64,000 bases of DNA. Origin: an uncultured Pseudodesulfovibrio sp. (GTDB lineage: Bacteria > Desulfobacterota > Desulfovibrionia > Desulfovibrionales > Desulfovibrionaceae). The translations under genes were made by a program, and so were the position numbers. Shown here piece by piece: positions 19,922 through 26,803 of the stretch. The DNA is taken from contig NZ_OY761823.1 of the NCBI RefSeq assembly GCF_963664965.1, positions 2,684,001 through 2,748,000 on the forward strand, read 5' to 3'. Positions within the stretch are counted from its first letter, which is position 1. Each line of letters begins with the position of its first letter. The notes beneath the pieces were generated by a model. The model did no database searches. It was not told the DNA's origin and saw nothing but the letters and a program-made list of their open reading frames with translations.

Positions 19922-20665
19922 TTGCAAAAACGTTATCTCCCGATCTTCATTCTGACGATCACACTCTTCATTGCGGCCGCCATTGGATATCTTTTCTCGC
20001 CGACGACCGACACACCACCCGTGCGAATTCTACTCGAGAACAAGGGAGGCAAAGTCATTTTTGCCCATCAGTCTCATGCAACCATTGAAGGAAACAATTG
20101 CAGGGGCTGCCACCATACTTCCGGCGATGACCAGAATCCTCCACAATGCAGCACCTGCCACGTTGCAAAATTTGACGCCGCTTTCACGGCAAACCATCAA
20201 AAAACAATAAATAAACAATTTTGTATATCCTGCCACCATCCTGCTAGCTCTGCCGACAAGTTTTCTCATGAAGAACACATAGAGGATTACACAGATCAGG
20301 ATTGCCAATCCTGCCACCATGATGCCGAAATAGAACCGGAACCTCAGGCCTGTTCAGACTGTCATGAAGCACAGGCAACCGGCCCCGCGCCGTCACTGCG
20401 TGACGCAACTCACGCACGATGTGCGGATTGTCACGACGACATGTATCAGGAAGGCCTCAAAGGATGCCGCAACTGTCATTCACGCCAACAGCCACAAGGG
20501 CAAGCCCTTGCCCCTGCTGCGTGCTCAACATGCCACACGCAACCTGCCAATGAACTCATTCCGACTAAAACAAATGCTTTTCACGGACAATGCATGGGCT
20601 GCCACGAGCAGCAGGGAGCCGGACCATTCGGCGATGACGCATGCTACAAATGCCACATGAAATAA
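19922..20665 (+). CDS. Decahaem cytochrome c of the Rnf operon
   Basis: 247 residues: an N-terminal signal anchor (residues 5-25) and ten CxxCH haem c motifs (CRGCH, CSTCH, CISCH, CQSCH, CSDCH, CADCH, CRNCH, CSTCH, CMGCH, CYKCH). Extra histidines suit bis-His ligation. It would sit on the periplasmic side and pass electrons between Rnf and the periplasmic cytochrome c pool; a cytochrome at the head of the rnf operon is known in Desulfovibrio. The start is TTG at 19922 with GAGG about 8 bases upstream. rnfC follows 14 bases after the stop. Confidence 0.92.
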   Translation: MQKRYLPIFILTITLFIAAAIGYLFSPTTDTPPVRILLENKGGKVIFAHQSHATIEGNNCRGCHHTSGDDQNPPQCSTCHVAKFDAAFTANHQKTINKQFCISCHHPASSADKFSHEEHIEDYTDQDCQSCHHDAEIEPEPQACSDCHEAQATGPAPSLRDATHARCADCHDDMYQEGLKGCRNCHSRQQPQGQALAPAACSTCHTQPANELIPTKTNAFHGQCMGCHEQQGAGPFGDDACYKCHMK

Positions 20666-20679
20666 AAGGCCAGTATACC

Positions 20680-21857
20680 ATGACTCAATTCAGCTTCAGC
20701 CTCCTGACCGGCGACACGGGCCCACTTGTAAAGGGGACACTCCGGACCGGCTTTGCATTCCGTCAGACAATCATGTCCCGATCATGACAGAAGGCGATCA
20801 GGTCCTGGCCGGAACAAAAATTGCCACCGCAAAACGGCATGGCGACGGAGATCTCCACTCCCCGCTTGCAGGAATAATAAGAGCAGTTCACGACTACGTC
20901 ATTGATATCGAGATAACAGGCAACGAACGAACGTCGCCCAACAGTTTTGCTGCTGACGGCAGCACATCCCTGAAAGACTGGCTGCATGACCTCGGTGTCA
21001 AAACATCCGAGATGAAACAAGCCGCAACGCTTGTTATCAATGCAGTCCCGCCTGAACCGGGCATATCGATTCATGAACCGCTGCTCCGCGATTACCGCAA
21101 GACGATCGAACTCGGACTGCAAACAGTGCAACGCATTGTCTCACCGTCCAAGATATATCTGGCCACGGCCAAGGGTAACCGCACCAACGCATTTTCCAAC
21201 TGCACGGTAACGTATGTCACGCCTGTACATCCCAACGGCGTTGAACCTCTGATCATAAAAAAGGTAACGGGACAGGAAGTCCTGCTTGGAGCCAAACCGG
21301 ATAACGTCGTCCTCATTTCAGTCCGTGAACTGTATTTCATAGGCAAAGTCATGGAAACAGGACGCCCCGTGACAGAAACAGTCATGACCATCGGCAAGCA
21401 GAATCATCTTGTTCATGTTGGCACCCCCGTTGGCTTTCTGGCCTCTGAAAGCGGCATCACGCCTCAACCGGGTGACCGGATTATAATGGGTGGGCTGATG
21501 CGCGGCATGGCGGCTCGTGACCTTGAACAGGGAGTAACCAAGGAAACCACGGGACTCAATATTCTGAGAACAGATGAAGCCTTCATGGCATCGGACAACC
21601 CCTGTCTCGGATGCGGAGAATGTGAACGCCGCTGCCCCGCACGCATCATGCCGGGAATGCTGAGCAGATGCGCCGAATTCAAGTATTTCGAACGAGCAGA
21701 AGCATTCCACATTCATTCCTGCATTGAATGCGGCATCTGCGGATATTGGTGCAAGGCGCAACGTCCCTTGCTGCAATATATTCGCCTCGCCAAGTATGAA
21801 CTGGCTCTCCTCCGAAGTAATAACGCCGACAATGATCGAAACGGAGAAACACAATAA
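20680..21857 (+). CDS. rnfC: RnfC, frame-changed near the N-terminus
   Basis: Rnf subunit on the cytoplasmic side that normally binds NADH and FMN. The frame starting at ATG 20680 (MTQFSFSLLTGDTGPLVK) continues into the main frame only after a -1 shift near 20730, where the bases A AAG GGG (20730-20736) form an X-XXY-YYZ slippery heptamer. After the shift the sequence reads GDTPDRLCIPSDNHVPIM then TEGDQVLAG from 20784. The main part has a barrel-sandwich region and two 4Fe-4S motifs (CLGCGECERRC and CIECGICGYWC). The usual GIVGLGGAGFPTHVKL nucleotide/FMN loop is not found; the sequence runs from LHDLGVKTSEMKQ directly to LVINAVPPEPGI. A translation restart at ATG 20784 (overlapping TGA, ATGA) is an alternative to the shift. 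Confidence 0.8.
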
Positions 21858-22837
21858 TGAAGCCGATTGAGCCGATACTGACTGTTTCCGTACCACCGCA
21901 CGTCCACTGTGGTCGAACCATCAAGGGGTACATGGCAGAGACCCTGCTCGCCCTTCTTCCAGCAGCAACCATGGCTGTACTGATTTTCGGCATTGAGGCA
22001 TTGCGGGTCATGGCACTGTCCTGTGCAGTCGCTGTATTATCGGAAGCACTCTGCAACAAGGTGTTCAAACGCGATCAGTCCGTCGACGACCTCAGCGCAC
22101 TGCATACGGGCCTGCTGTTCGCATTCCTGCTCCCGGCATCTTCGCCGTGGTGGCTCGTGACCATTGGATCGGCGGCAAGTATTGTTCTCGGGAAAATGAT
22201 TTTCGGCGGACTCGGCGGCAACCCGCTTTCAGCTCCACTCGTCGGCTGGGCCATCTGCCGCATTTCATGGGGCAACGCCATGGACACCAATGCCACCATG
22301 CTCATGTCCGATCTGGCAGCCCCGCTGCAACAGCTCAAATACTTCGGCATACAATCCATAGAAACGATCCGGACATCCTCACTGCTTTTCGGCGAACAAC
22401 TGGGAGGTCTCGGCGAAGTACAGGTGATCGCCCTCCTCGCAGGTGGAGCGTTCCTTATCCTCCGCCGTCACATCAGTTGGGAAATTCCGGTCTCATTCAT
22501 GGCAGGCCTCACGGCAACGGCATGGATTTACCAACTCATTGACCCGACGATGTACGCCTCTCCCCTTTTCCACCTCCTCGCAGGCGGTGGCATATTCGGA
22601 GCATTCTTTCTGGCGACAGACAGCGCTTCATCCCCAATCGGTCGGATTCCGTCCATTCTCTACGGTATCATGGCAGGCACAATGGTCATCATCATCCGCG
22701 TGTATGGCATATACCCGGACGGCGTCCCCTTTGCCATCCTCCTCGCAAGTCTGTTCACACCGCTACTTGACCGAATACGCCCAAAACCGTTCGGCGGTCC
22801 TTACACGTTTTCCCATGAACAGGGAGGCGATGCGTAA
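21857..22837 (+). CDS. rnfD: RnfD, membrane subunit of Rnf complex
   Basis: 326 residues with at least eight membrane spans, the membrane core of the ion-pumping Rnf complex. It overlaps the rnfC stop by one base (TAATG), so coupling is likely. The region where RnfD carries FMN on a threonine in a (S/T)GATPL motif reads SDLAAPLQQLK (residues 151-161): Ala155 stands in place of Thr. Other family stretches (FGGLGGNPLSAPLVGWA, and FLATDSASSP) are clear. The absence of the threonine is an alignment-by-eye judgement. Confidence 0.9.
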   Translation: MKPIEPILTVSVPPHVHCGRTIKGYMAETLLALLPAATMAVLIFGIEALRVMALSCAVAVLSEALCNKVFKRDQSVDDLSALHTGLLFAFLLPASSPWWLVTIGSAASIVLGKMIFGGLGGNPLSAPLVGWAICRISWGNAMDTNATMLMSDLAAPLQQLKYFGIQSIETIRTSSLLFGEQLGGLGEVQVIALLAGGAFLILRRHISWEIPVSFMAGLTATAWIYQLIDPTMYASPLFHLLAGGGIFGAFFLATDSASSPIGRIPSILYGIMAGTMVIIIRVYGIYPDGVPFAILLASLFTPLLDRIRPKPFGGPYTFSHEQGGDA

Positions 22838-23415
22838 TGAAAGAAATGCTTCGCATGATTCTCGTCCTTTCCCTGATCTGCGGACTGTCAGGTTTGACAC
22901 TGGCAACCGTGCGACAAGCCACAAGTGAACGCATCGAAGAACAGGTATTGACCTATGTTCAGGGACCGGCCCTCCAGCAAATTTTCACAGATTATGACAA
23001 CAACCCGGTCAAGGATCGAAAAACCTTCGAACTGCCGGACGGCCCGATTACCGTATTCCCCGCCATTAAAAATGGTAAGCTGACCGGCATCGCCTTTGAA
23101 CGCTTCGGGAAAGGATATGGCGGCCCCATCGGCATCATGGTGGGATTTTCTACAGACGGAACCAAACTTGAAGGCATCGGCATCACGACCATGAAGGAAA
23201 CCCCCGGTCTGGGCGCACGCATTGTGGAGCCGGATTTCCGCACCCAGTTCAAGGGACATGCGACACAAAACATCAACCTGAAGAAACAGGGCGGCGATAT
23301 AACAGCCATTTCCGGCGCGACTATTTCTTCCACCGGAACGGTTTCCGCAGTCAACGATGCGATAAAGATATTCAACAAAATCAAAGACAAGCTCCCTTCT
23401 ACTTGGGATTCCTAG
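22837..23415 (+). CDS. rnfG: RnfG, flavin-binding subunit
   Basis: 192 residues: an N-terminal membrane anchor (about 5-25) and a periplasmic FMN-binding domain. The covalent-FMN motif SGAT is at 159-162 (T162 expected to bear FMN), so this flavin site is kept, unlike RnfD. It shares a base with the rnfD stop (TAATG). rnfE begins 8 bases after its end. Confidence 0.94.
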   Translation: MKEMLRMILVLSLICGLSGLTLATVRQATSERIEEQVLTYVQGPALQQIFTDYDNNPVKDRKTFELPDGPITVFPAIKNGKLTGIAFERFGKGYGGPIGIMVGFSTDGTKLEGIGITTMKETPGLGARIVEPDFRTQFKGHATQNINLKKQGGDITAISGATISSTGTVSAVNDAIKIFNKIKDKLPSTWDS

Positions 23416-23423
23416 GAAAAGTC

Positions 23424-24101
23424 ATGAGTAAGTTGTGGAAAGAATTCTCCAAGGGATTATGGAAAGACCTGCCGCCGTTCAAGCTGGTACTCGGCCTGTG
23501 CCCGGTACTTGCGGTCACCAAGACGGCCTACAACGGTTTCGGCATGGGATTGGCGGTCATCTTCGTATTGGCACTGTCCAACATGCTGGTCTCGATGCTG
23601 CGAAAACTCATCCCCGCCAAAGTCCGAATCGCCTGTTTCATCGTTGTCGCAGCCTCGCTTGTCGTATGCGTCGAACTGCTCATGCAGGCATACGCATACC
23701 CGCTGTATCAGCAGCTCGGCATCTTTGTTCCGCTCATCGTGGTCAACTGCATCATCCTTGGACGCGCAGAAGCATTCGCCTCCAAAAATCCGGTTTATCT
23801 GGCTGTTGCCGACGGCCTCGGCATGGGGATCGGCTTCACCGTCTCTCTCTCCTTCCTCGGCAGTATCCGGGAATTGCTCGGCTATGGCACATGGTTCGGC
23901 ATACATGTCATGGGCGACTGGTTCCAGCCGTTCACCTTCATGGTCGAAGCCCCCGGTGCATTCGTCTGTCTCGGCCTTGTTCTGGCAGGCATGAATTCCT
24001 TCACCAACTGGCAGCGAAAATCAAAAGGGCTGGACGCCATTGAAGGCCCGGTCCACGATTGCAAAACATGCGGCATGTGCGCCAACAAACCCGGAGCGTA
24101 A
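23424..24101 (+). CDS. rnfE: RnfE, membrane subunit of Rnf complex
   Basis: 225 residues starting MSKLWKEFSKGLWKD (ATG 23424, with AGGA 7-8 bases upstream; an in-frame TTG at 23403 is discarded). It has six membrane spans and the family GLCPVLAVTKTAYNGFGMGLAV opening; RnfE/RnfA form the central ion channel and coordinate an Fe-S cluster between them. The C-terminus carries an extra HDCKTCGMCANKPGA tail with three cysteines. Confidence 0.93.
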   Translation: MSKLWKEFSKGLWKDLPPFKLVLGLCPVLAVTKTAYNGFGMGLAVIFVLALSNMLVSMLRKLIPAKVRIACFIVVAASLVVCVELLMQAYAYPLYQQLGIFVPLIVVNCIILGRAEAFASKNPVYLAVADGLGMGIGFTVSLSFLGSIRELLGYGTWFGIHVMGDWFQPFTFMVEAPGAFVCLGLVLAGMNSFTNWQRKSKGLDAIEGPVHDCKTCGMCANKPGA

Positions 24102-24110
24102 GGAGACGTC

Positions 24111-24686
24111 ATGGATTACTTCGTTCTCGTTATTGCCGCCATATTCGTCAACAACATCGTTCTTGCACAATACCTCGGCAACTGCCCGTTTATCGGGACA
24201 TCCAAGGAATCCGGTGTCGCCATCGGCATGGGATTGGCTGTCGTATTTGTCGCGACCATGGCAGCCGCAATCACATGGTGCGTCCAGAAATACCTGCTCG
24301 CCCCCAACGACCTCGCCTATCTTCAAACCATTGCCTTCATTCTGGTTATCGCCTCTCTGGTTCAATTCGTTGAGATGTTCCTGAAAAAGGCCATTCCGCC
24401 ACTGTACAACTCACTCGGCATTTTTCTGCCGCTGATCACCACCAACTGTGCAGTCCTCGGCATCGCCATCATCTGTCAGCGCGAAGAATATTCGCTCATT
24501 GAAACCATTGTCTTTTCCATTGCCTCCGGCTTCGGCTTCATGCTCGCCCTTGTGGTTCTGGCAGGAATCCGGGAACGTCTGGACCTCGCCCGCGTGCCAG
24601 TCAGCCTGAAGGGAACACCGTTGGCTCTTATCATGGCAGGGCTCATGTCCCTCGCATTCTTCGCCTTCAAAGGCATGGCATCATAG
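24111..24686 (+). CDS. rnfA: RnfA, membrane subunit of Rnf complex
   Basis: 191 residues, six membrane spans, homologous to RnfE with inverted topology. It starts MDYFVLVIAAIFVNNIVLAQYLGNCPFIG (family signature, with the conserved C in GNCPF). GGAGA lies 5 bases upstream of ATG. It precedes rnfB by 11 bases. Confidence 0.95.
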   Translation: MDYFVLVIAAIFVNNIVLAQYLGNCPFIGTSKESGVAIGMGLAVVFVATMAAAITWCVQKYLLAPNDLAYLQTIAFILVIASLVQFVEMFLKKAIPPLYNSLGIFLPLITTNCAVLGIAIICQREEYSLIETIVFSIASGFGFMLALVVLAGIRERLDLARVPVSLKGTPLALIMAGLMSLAFFAFKGMAS

Positions 24687-24697
24687 GAGACCGAGCC

Positions 24698-26803
24698 ATG
24701 ATCATATCATCAGTCCTCGTCCTGTTCGGCATAGGCCTCACTGCGGCAATCATTCTGGCTGTCGCCTCCAAGGTACTCTACGTATACGAAGACCCGCGCA
24801 TTGCTCAGGTGGAAAGCGTTCTTGCTGGTGCCAACTGCGGCGGCTGCGGATTTCCCGGCTGTGCCGGTGCGGCTCAAGGCGTTGTGGCTGGCAAGGCCGG
24901 AGCCACGGTCTGTGTCATCGGCGGAGACGAGGTCGCGGCAAACGTAGCCGCCATCATGGGGCTGGAATTCTCAGCCATGGAAAAACAGATCGCATTCGTG
25001 GACTGTACCGGCGGTGTTCGCGCCGAGGAAACCTACACATATTACGGTGTTCAGGACTGCCGCGCCCAGAGCATGCTCTACGACGGCAACAAAATGTGCC
25101 CGGAAGGCTGTCTCGGCTTCGGCACCTGCGTCACGGCATGTCAATTCAACGCAATCGAGATGGGCCCCAACGGCTATCCCGTCGTCGATCCGAATCTATG
25201 CACGGCCTGCGGCGGTTGTGCACAGGTCTGCCCTCGCGGAGTTATCTCGATTGTCGGCATGACCGCCCGTCTCATTCATCTCAATGAAGAAACCGATTGC
25301 CTCGCCCCGTGTCGTCAACGCTGTCCGGGCCAGATCAACATTCCCCGCTACATCGAACAGGTCTCACGCGGCGACTATGCCGGAGCGCTTGAAACCATCC
25401 GCGAACGAATCCCCATGCCGCTTTCCATCGGCCGAGTCTGCCCTCACCCGTGTGAAGACGTCTGTCGCCGCGGGCATGTGGATGAGTCTGTTGGAATCAA
25501 CATGGTGAAACGCTTTGTAGCGGACTGGGAAATGAACTCCGGCCAAAGACAGCCCATCAAGTGTGCGCCGAAAACAGGTCGGAAAGTCGCCGTCGTAGGC
25601 GGTGGTCCAGCAGGTCTGTCCTGTGCCTATTTCCTGCGTCGCCTTGGCCATTCCCCGACCATTTTCGAGTCCATGCCGAAACTCGGTGGTCAACTACGAT
25701 ACGGCATTCCAGAATACAGGCTCCCCAAGGCCGTTCTGGATTGGGAGATCGAAGGGATACTGGGCCTCGGCATCAACGTAGAGTACGAAAAGTTTTTCGG
25801 AACGGACTTTGACCTGCAATCTCTTGAGAAAGACGGCTACGAAGCGGTCTTTCTCGGCATAGGGGCATGGATGAACATGACCCTCCGGATAGACGGCGAA
25901 GATGCCAAGGGTGTGGAAACCGGCACTGAATTTCTCACAAAAGTCGGACTCGGCACGGAATCCGGCATCGGGAAGAAAGTCGTTGTCATCGGCGGGGGCA
26001 ATACCGCCATCGATACCGCACGAACCGGCGTTCGCCTTGGATCTGACGTGACACTGATGTACCGTCGAACCAGAGATGAAATGCCCGCGAACATCGAAGA
26101 AATAGTCGGAGCCGAGGAGGAGAACGTCAAATATCTCTTTCTGGCTGCCCCGACCCGTATCCTCACAGACGATTCAGGACACGTCACGCACGTCGAATAC
26201 ATCAAGATGGAACTCGGGGAACCGGATGAATCCGGCAGACGCAGGCCCGTTCCCATCGAAGGTTCGGAAACACTCATTGAAGCGGACACAGTCTACACGG
26301 CCATTGGTCAGAAGCCGGAGCTTACCTGCCTCTATGACGAATCCGGCAATTGCCACCTTGAGGAAACCCGCTGGCGCACGCTTGGAGCAGATCCGGTAAC
26401 GCTCCAGACCCTCCTGCCGCATGTTTTCACTGGCGGGGACATGCACACCGGACCGGCGATCGTCATCACCGCTCTGGGAGAAGGCAGAAAAGCCGCACGC
26501 TCTATCCATCAATTCCTGACAGATGGAGAACTCCACTATTCCCCACGCCTGCAACGCGAATTGCTCCCCTACACCATGTTTACCGACGTTCCGAACGTCA
26601 GGTACAGGGAAAAGGCCGAGGTCCCACACCTTATCGAATGTGACGAACGCATATGCACTTTCAAGGAAATCGAAGGTTCCATCAGTGAAAAGGAAGTAAA
26701 GGAGGAAACCTGCCGCTGCCTCCGTTGCGGCCTGACCTGCTATAATCGCGACATGGCAGATGAACAGGAGTGCGTAGCAGAAAATTGTGTAAAAAATCCG
26801 TAA
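24698..26803 (+). CDS. rnfB: RnfB fused to a GltD-like FAD/NAD(P) oxidoreductase
   Basis: 701 residues, against the roughly 180-290 usual for RnfB. Residues 1-185 are RnfB: membrane anchor (1-25), the CGGCGFPGC cluster (47-55), and two 4Fe-4S motifs (MCPEGCLGFGTCVTAC and LCTACGGCAQVC). Residues about 196-630 resemble the small subunit of glutamate synthase (GltD): Cys clusters CLAPCRQRC and CPHPCEDVC, FAD motif GGGPAG (301-306) and a nucleotide motif VIGGGNTA, followed by MYRRTRDEMPA, which in GltD and NfnB fits NADPH. A C-terminal Cys-rich tail (CRCLRCGLTC) ends the protein. It is the last rnf gene. The fusion supplies the nucleotide-binding function that RnfC appears to lack. Confidence 0.9.
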   Translation: MIISSVLVLFGIGLTAAIILAVASKVLYVYEDPRIAQVESVLAGANCGGCGFPGCAGAAQGVVAGKAGATVCVIGGDEVAANVAAIMGLEFSAMEKQIAFVDCTGGVRAEETYTYYGVQDCRAQSMLYDGNKMCPEGCLGFGTCVTACQFNAIEMGPNGYPVVDPNLCTACGGCAQVCPRGVISIVGMTARLIHLNEETDCLAPCRQRCPGQINIPRYIEQVSRGDYAGALETIRERIPMPLSIGRVCPHPCEDVCRRGHVDESVGINMVKRFVADWEMNSGQRQPIKCAPKTGRKVAVVGGGPAGLSCAYFLRRLGHSPTIFESMPKLGGQLRYGIPEYRLPKAVLDWEIEGILGLGINVEYEKFFGTDFDLQSLEKDGYEAVFLGIGAWMNMTLRIDGEDAKGVETGTEFLTKVGLGTESGIGKKVVVIGGGNTAIDTARTGVRLGSDVTLMYRRTRDEMPANIEEIVGAEEENVKYLFLAAPTRILTDDSGHVTHVEYIKMELGEPDESGRRRPVPIEGSETLIEADTVYTAIGQKPELTCLYDESGNCHLEETRWRTLGADPVTLQTLLPHVFTGGDMHTGPAIVITALGEGRKAARSIHQFLTDGELHYSPRLQRELLPYTMFTDVPNVRYREKAEVPHLIECDERICTFKEIEGSISEKEVKEETCRCLRCGLTCYNRDMADEQECVAENCVKNP

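Follow-up and report, generated by a model that had tools for sequence, protein, structure and literature searches.

A Rnf2-type operon with an FAD/NAD(P) module fused to RnfB and an RnfC without the NADH/FMN loop in a Desulfovibrionaceae-like genome

The rnf operon and its host genome

The window analysed here, a stretch of 64,000 nucleotides from a Pseudodesulfovibrio sp. genome of 3.87 Mb (contig NZ_OY761823.1, positions 2,684,001 to 2,748,000), contains an operon for an Rnf complex at window positions 19922-26803 on the + strand. The genes follow the order decahaem cytochrome, rnfC, rnfD, rnfG, rnfE, rnfA and rnfB, all in the same direction, and the operon encodes all six RnfABCDGE subunits. 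Its first gene (19922-20665) codes for a c-type cytochrome with ten CxxCH motifs, a hydrophobic N-terminus that could be an anchor or a signal, and a Cytochrom_CIII match of 76.8 bits.

The last gene (24698-26803) encodes an RnfB of 701 residues in which, as an earlier note made from the sequence had claimed, a module for flavin adenine dinucleotide (FAD) and NAD(P) is fused behind the RnfB/ferredoxin part. The latter (residues 1-190, 24698-25267; relatives 9eri_B and 7zc6_B) comprises a transmembrane helix and ferredoxin clusters. The module (residues 197-682, 25286-26743) is of the StnC/NfnABC type and was recognised in a domain search as Fer4_20 plus Pyr_redox_2 over about residues 200-680. 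Both of the loops named in the note were intact, GGGPAG for FAD (residues 301-306, 25598-25615) and GGGNTA for NAD(P) (residues 432-437, 25991-26008). The basic stretch YRRTR (residues 455-459, 26060-26074), whose YRR is also present in NfnABC and StnC, is one which we take to contact the 2'-phosphate of NADPH. A C-terminal CxxCxxxC (residues 674-681, 26717-26740) closes the module, and the protein stops at residue 701 without the NuoG/FdhF-like domain of StnC.

The module was most similar to the NADPH-side subunits of bifurcating complexes and has the fold of the StnC/NfnA type together with its residues for FAD and NAD(P) and its Lys and Arg; against the GltD family model TIGR01316 the protein scored 368 bits, under the cut-off of 471.75. 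In the alignment, K271 and R341 correspond to K170 and R239 of StnC, the roles of which are described in an excerpt of PMC10482914. We then aligned the fused RnfB proteins longer than 640 residues from the survey described below (100 of 105). The C-terminal CxxCxxxC and the 14 cluster cysteines of the RnfB part were invariant in all 100, position 341 was Arg in 100, and position 271 was Lys in 85. The arginine pair of YRR was missing in 22 of the 100, of which 15 have Glu, His or Gln at position 271 and seven keep Lys; all of these 15 come from operons with a small cytochrome or with an overlapping or cut upstream part. Since the FAD and NAD(P) loops are kept and StnC, which binds NADPH, is among the closest proteins of solved structure, the proposed preference for NADPH is a sensible reading, and the module may form an NADPH-leaning port on RnfB. 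It would probably not be bifurcating on its own, because its FAD-proximal cluster has the Lys of StnC and not the Glu of NfnB.

In RnfC, the glycine-rich loop for NADH and flavin mononucleotide (FMN) had been said to be missing, and an alignment with NADH-type Rnf had been named as the check. That alignment showed no intact NADH/FMN loop and no GGAxFP motif. The loop is present in all three solved NADH-type RnfC proteins (GGATFPTHVKL in two, GGAIFPAAVKL in the third), and the site of the absent GGAxFPTHVKL (20982-21014) reads LHDLGV-KTSEM in the window. Compared with solved RnfC, about 30 residues are missing from the segment that leads from the RnfC_N domain to the NAVPPEPG strand. A Complex1_51K match was partial and under the cut-off (23.2 versus 31.2 bits), no SLBB domain was listed at E values up to 0.1, and the 377-residue body reached 180 bits with the rnfC family model (cut-off 245.95). 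Thus by sequence this RnfC has neither the NADH-oxidoreductase nor the ligand-binding domain. Its closest solved relatives are the RnfC proteins of Acetobacterium woodii, Azotobacter vinelandii and Clostridium tetanomorphum, and both 4Fe-4S motifs are retained.

The start of rnfC has to be corrected. The body is open from 20661 to 21857, and the ATG at 20680 lies out of frame with it, the 5' end from this ATG to about 20731 being read in a different frame. The break amounts to a single base, at A AAG GGG near 20730. Because it has no counterpart in 20 of 20 aligned relatives, loss of a base in this genome or its assembly (by an assembly error or a recent mutation) is likelier than a programmed frameshift or other recoding at that site. 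Genes for RnfC or fused RnfB were also split between frames in several draft contigs (L064, L069, L138, L140 and L159, the last three being from Salidesulfovibrio brasiliensis JCM 12178).

RnfD (21857-22837; NQR2_RnfD_RnfE, 317 bits) was compared with that of A. woodii, in which FMN is attached to Thr156 and riboflavin is bound through Asn123 and Asp249 (PMC11889175, in excerpt). The residue for covalent FMN is Ala155 in the window (22319-22321), Asn123 is replaced by Ser, and Asp249 is retained. In gel fluorescence, even the RnfD of C. tetanomorphum yielded no band (PMC9588780, in excerpt). In six genomes, in-frame TAG or TGA codons had been flagged within the match to rnfD; all of them precede its start codon by a short distance, so recoding was rejected. 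The remaining membrane subunits look intact: RnfG (22837-23415; FMN_bind, 71 bits) retains the S/TGAT motif for covalent FMN as SGAT, RnfE (23403-24101) and RnfA (24111-24686) match Rnf-Nqr with 217 and 199 bits, respectively, and the RnfA sequence aligns well to its A. woodii counterpart, with both Cys-bearing motifs kept in the alignment to 9eri_A.

The same genome has a second complete rnf operon (L072:6126-13830; G000:C1, about 3084-3092 kb) in the order five-CxxCH cytochrome, rnfCDGEAB and apbE. Its fused RnfB is 48% identical to that of the window, with YRR replaced and His at the position of K271. No Complex1_51K match over the cut-off was obtained in the whole genome and RnfD/NqrB-type matches were restricted to the two rnf operons, so that these searches revealed neither a NuoF nor a canonical RnfC or an NqrB. 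Genes for an NfnB-like and an NfnA-like protein are adjacent at about 790-792 kb, and ApbE is present twice.

Distribution and history of the loop-less complexes

Loci for the survey of rnf operons came from relatives, from the family and from the phylum, and from named genome contigs, which were scanned with the fused-RnfB alignment. The scan gave 402 stretches with 333 relatives, of which the best 80 were kept; in L150 and the last 12 of these, the match is essentially confined to the module. Of 224 operons, 11 duplicated the RnfD core of another row, which left 213 distinct ones, and two Nqr rows were set aside. The resulting 211 operons include eight without a readable RnfC and 12 without an RnfB call, and four of the 93 RnfB proteins called unfused reach a contig end (L169, L170, L172 and L235).

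RnfC can be read in 99 of the 105 distinct fused operons, and the loop was found in none of them; the combination of features is therefore no accident of this window, but the sequences are related and do not stand for 99 independent events. The loop was present in 42 of the 93 operons called unfused with a readable RnfC (the four cut RnfB proteins included), which leaves 51 complexes called unfused that are loop-less as well, two of them (L172 and L235) with a cut RnfB. All 42 loop-bearing operons have the RnfD Thr, and the equivalents of N120, N123, T156 and D249 in RnfD are N, N, T and D in each of the 42. Among the 161 loop-less operons, four have the RnfD Thr motif (the rnfC of one, L225, is cut by a contig end) and six a degenerate one. 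Restricted to the 105 fused operons, T156 is Thr in three, with gaps in three more, and N123 is Asn in 27. We also looked for a module encoded separately: none of the 41 loop-less unfused cytochrome-type operons had a module-like open reading frame (ORF) in the stretch fetched, the remainder of those genomes not having been searched.

In the draw of 149 genomes from the family, the matches listed include a full-length fused RnfB in one piece for at least 34, and an RnfD/NqrB match was obtained in 69. The fusion is also found in loci labelled Desulfatitalea and Desulfobacteraceae. Beyond Desulfobacterota, fused loci among the best 80 of the 333 relatives carry the labels, as metagenome-assembled genomes (MAGs), of CSSED10-310, Neomarinimicrobiota, Thermoanaerobaculales, Zixiibacteriota, Gemmatimonadales, Krumholzibacteria and SAR324.

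Cytochrome genes were scored as ORFs with at least three CxxCH motifs on the same strand and no more than 600 bases upstream of the rnfC ORF. Such an ORF was present just upstream of rnfC in 87 of the 105 fused operons, with ten CxxCH motifs in 44, five in 22, eight in 14 and four or six in seven. Most of the other 18 operons are cut by a contig end or have the ORF overlapping, as in L091, where it overlaps the rnfC frame.

A tree of RnfD, RnfE and RnfA was built from 117 rows by a quick method, excluding the RnfD motif columns. A branch with 100% support in the Shimodaira-Hasegawa-like approximate likelihood ratio test (SH-aLRT) separates 88 rows, none of them loop-bearing, and nearly all loop-less unfused complexes group with the fused ones on core-subunit trees. 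L275 and L279 fall outside that branch as a second loop-less group that retains the RnfD Thr. L281 belongs to this separate group as well, in which RnfB is unfused and RnfD has the Thr for flavin. Within the fused rows lies a nested unfused lineage, mostly Desulfovibrionaceae by group codes. Accordingly, a single clade of fused rows was rejected by the approximately unbiased (AU) test (p 8e-6), which was done on a hand-picked subset of 47 rows with the grouping known beforehand from the 117-row tree. The tree requires two loop changes and three fusion changes, one of which may be an artefact, given that the unfused call of L235 comes from a cut RnfB.

Loop loss and fusion are thus separable on the evidence of these sequences, because 51 unfused complexes are also loop-less and the unfused lineage is nested inside the fused ones. 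The simplest account is that the loop was lost once, that the fusion arose at or after that point and that the module was then lost in the nested unfused lineage; the direction of these changes depends on the root. As the operons are related and few changes occur on the tree, their number does not amount to independent evidence.

Possible electron routes

We read the operon as an Rnf2 (Tol2)-type Rnf that would act as a ferredoxin/NADPH:periplasmic-cytochrome pump, a reading to which we assign a probability of roughly 0.45. Reduced ferredoxin would feed the clusters of RnfB, and electrons of NADP(H) would enter or leave through the FAD module. From the RnfB clusters they would pass by the iron-sulfur centre of RnfA/E to the FMN of RnfG, with ion translocation coupled there, and would exit from RnfG to the periplasmic cytochrome instead of returning through RnfD and RnfC to NAD+. 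RnfC with its two 4Fe-4S clusters may serve as an internal electron store or as a bridge to the module. An outlet at RnfG and the cytochrome, like the one proposed for Methanosarcina acetivorans, is favoured because the outbound half (RnfB, RnfA/E and RnfG) looks intact, the flavin residues of the return half are gone and a cytochrome is encoded at the outlet. The path in A. woodii is U-shaped and finishes at RnfC; RnfA/E is where Na+ is moved, whereas RnfD does no more than carry electrons (PMC11889175, in excerpt), so that a pump terminating at RnfG is conceivable. The link between ferredoxin, NAD(P)H and periplasmic cytochromes that had been proposed for this locus fits the sequences, from which both ion coupling and electron flow are inferred.

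Several findings weigh against the cytochrome-directed pump. The equivalent of RnfD D249 is Asp or Glu in all 105 fused operons, and since this riboflavin residue is kept, a flavin might still sit non-covalently in RnfD of the fused complexes. All eight cluster cysteines of RnfC are kept wherever they could be read in loop-less complexes, both fused (98 of 98) and unfused (51 of 51), and this suggests a remaining role of RnfC in electron transfer. Seven of the fused operons (L226, L228, L234, L263, L271, L272 and L273) have about 4 kb of sequence available upstream of rnfC and no multihaem ORF in it, and L142, with 2.9 kb upstream, has one downstream only. Finally, the coupling between the losses of the RnfC loop and the RnfD Thr rests on about one event, because the tree has two loop changes and the second loop-less group keeps the Thr.

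The earlier note had taken the pyridine-nucleotide site to have moved from RnfC to RnfB. As stated this was not supported: the loop is also absent in 51 unfused complexes, and the flavin residues of RnfD are lost too, for which a simple swap of the site would not account. A version in which the U-shaped path still works, with the 4Fe-4S clusters of RnfC passing electrons to the RnfB module in place of the RnfC FMN, would make the complex a ferredoxin:NADP+ oxidoreductase. The conserved RnfC cysteines in the 98 fused complexes and the intact motifs of the window module speak for it, as does the C. tetanomorphum complex, where RnfB and RnfC abut with the NAD cleft between them (excerpt of PMC9588780). 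Nevertheless, the rarity of the RnfD Thr and of the riboflavin Asn in fused operons, the loop-less unfused complexes with no module on RnfB and the loss of the YRR arginine pair in 22 of 100 fused proteins make this unlikely. We consider it slightly less probable still that the module is an NADPH:ferredoxin connection that just loads or unloads the RnfB wire, perhaps by a bifurcation in which the membrane domain is the high-potential branch, the cytochrome being an accessory. The similarity to NADPH-side subunits of bifurcating complexes, the seven cytochrome-less operons and the fact that the cytochrome gene is largely dispensable in Desulfovibrio alaskensis G20 agree with it. However, the residue at the proximal cluster is the StnC-like Lys, the FAD of StnC is reported as non-bifurcating (PMC10482914, in excerpt), and the adjacent NfnB-like and NfnA-like genes could fill the soluble role. 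That the complex is an ordinary ferredoxin:NAD+ Rnf whose RnfC and RnfD sites have diverged but still work appears improbable in view of the missing RnfC loop and flavin residues. In addition, attempts with vesicles of D. alaskensis, a strain whose Rnf type was not checked, did not succeed in demonstrating an ion gradient when ferredoxin is oxidised and NAD+ reduced (PMC4841214, in excerpt). A published primer for strain G20 matched none of 288 genomes of the family, and none of the 12 primers of that strain occurred in the loci searched.

The cytochrome-directed pump can be extended, more tentatively, to the loop-less clade as a whole, that is to Desulfobacterota and MAGs carrying the labels of at least seven other groups. 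These would have an 'open-ended' Rnf in which electrons of ferredoxin and NADPH go through RnfB, RnfA/E and RnfG to multihaem cytochromes of the outer face, the return through RnfD and RnfC to NAD+ being dead. If so, the nested unfused Rnf of Desulfovibrionaceae would have no known pyridine-nucleotide site. The usual model for Rnf of sulfate reducers is a ferredoxin:NAD+ pump; should the clade deliver its electrons to a periplasmic cytochrome and accept NADPH at RnfB, models of energy conservation in Desulfovibrionaceae and Desulfobacteraceae and annotations in the other phyla need revision. The loss of RnfD flavin residues bears directly on a published question, what Rnf2 reduces.

Comparison with known systems

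A large RnfB together with an RnfC that lacks the NADH domain is a kind already known. The excerpts of PMC5109826 describe it as 'Tol2-type' or Rnf2 for Desulfobacula toluolica, with an NAD site on RnfB, and report Rnf2 also in Desulfococcus multivorans, with subunits detected in the proteome and a cytochrome in the rnf2 cluster; Rnf2 is given as core in Desulfobacteraceae in PMC11887813 (in excerpt). The window complex resembles these in its RnfB of about 700 residues with an NAD-binding region and in the domains missing from RnfC. Unlike Rnf2/Tol2 as described, it comes from a Desulfovibrionaceae-like genome, presumably of a sulfate reducer (the nearest named loci are Pseudodesulfovibrio), and is accompanied by a decahaem cytochrome. 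For Desulfovibrionaceae the type given in the 2025 paper is Rnf1 (excerpt of PMC11887813), whereas the Rnf of the window is of the Rnf2 type. Part of PMC11434368 deals with Desulfovibrionaceae in which rnfB was lost and an FAD-dependent oxidoreductase is present instead; in contrast, rnfB is fused here and not lost, as the 14 invariant cysteines attest. The excerpts covered, all from open-licence literature, contained no mention of the losses in RnfD, of the kinship with StnC, of the unfused lineage nested among fused ones or of the wide spread. PMC10979944/PMC11334425, on protein flavinylation and with many mentions of RnfD, could hold an earlier description of the RnfD change.

With the canonical Rnf of A. 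woodii, C. tetanomorphum and Azotobacter the complex shares the six subunits, the RnfC fold and the RnfA and RnfG motifs; it differs from them in the lost RnfC loop and RnfD flavin residues and in the module borne by RnfB. As in Methanosarcina acetivorans, a c-type cytochrome is encoded alongside Rnf. The M. acetivorans complex reportedly does not interact with NAD(P) and works with cytochrome c, with an electron exit proposed at RnfG (PMC4023990, in excerpt). The window RnfB, unlike that system, has an NAD(P) module, of which the excerpt makes no mention for M. acetivorans, and the window RnfC scored 110.5 bits with the methanogen RnfC model NF041837, far under its 650. The module itself is like StnC of StnABC from Sporomusa ovata and NfnA of NfnABC in its GltD-fold FAD/NAD(P) architecture, 3+3 Cys pattern and YRR, and like StnC in the Lys at the proximal cluster and the Arg near FAD; it differs in being fused to RnfB in a membrane pump and in having no NuoG/FdhF part.

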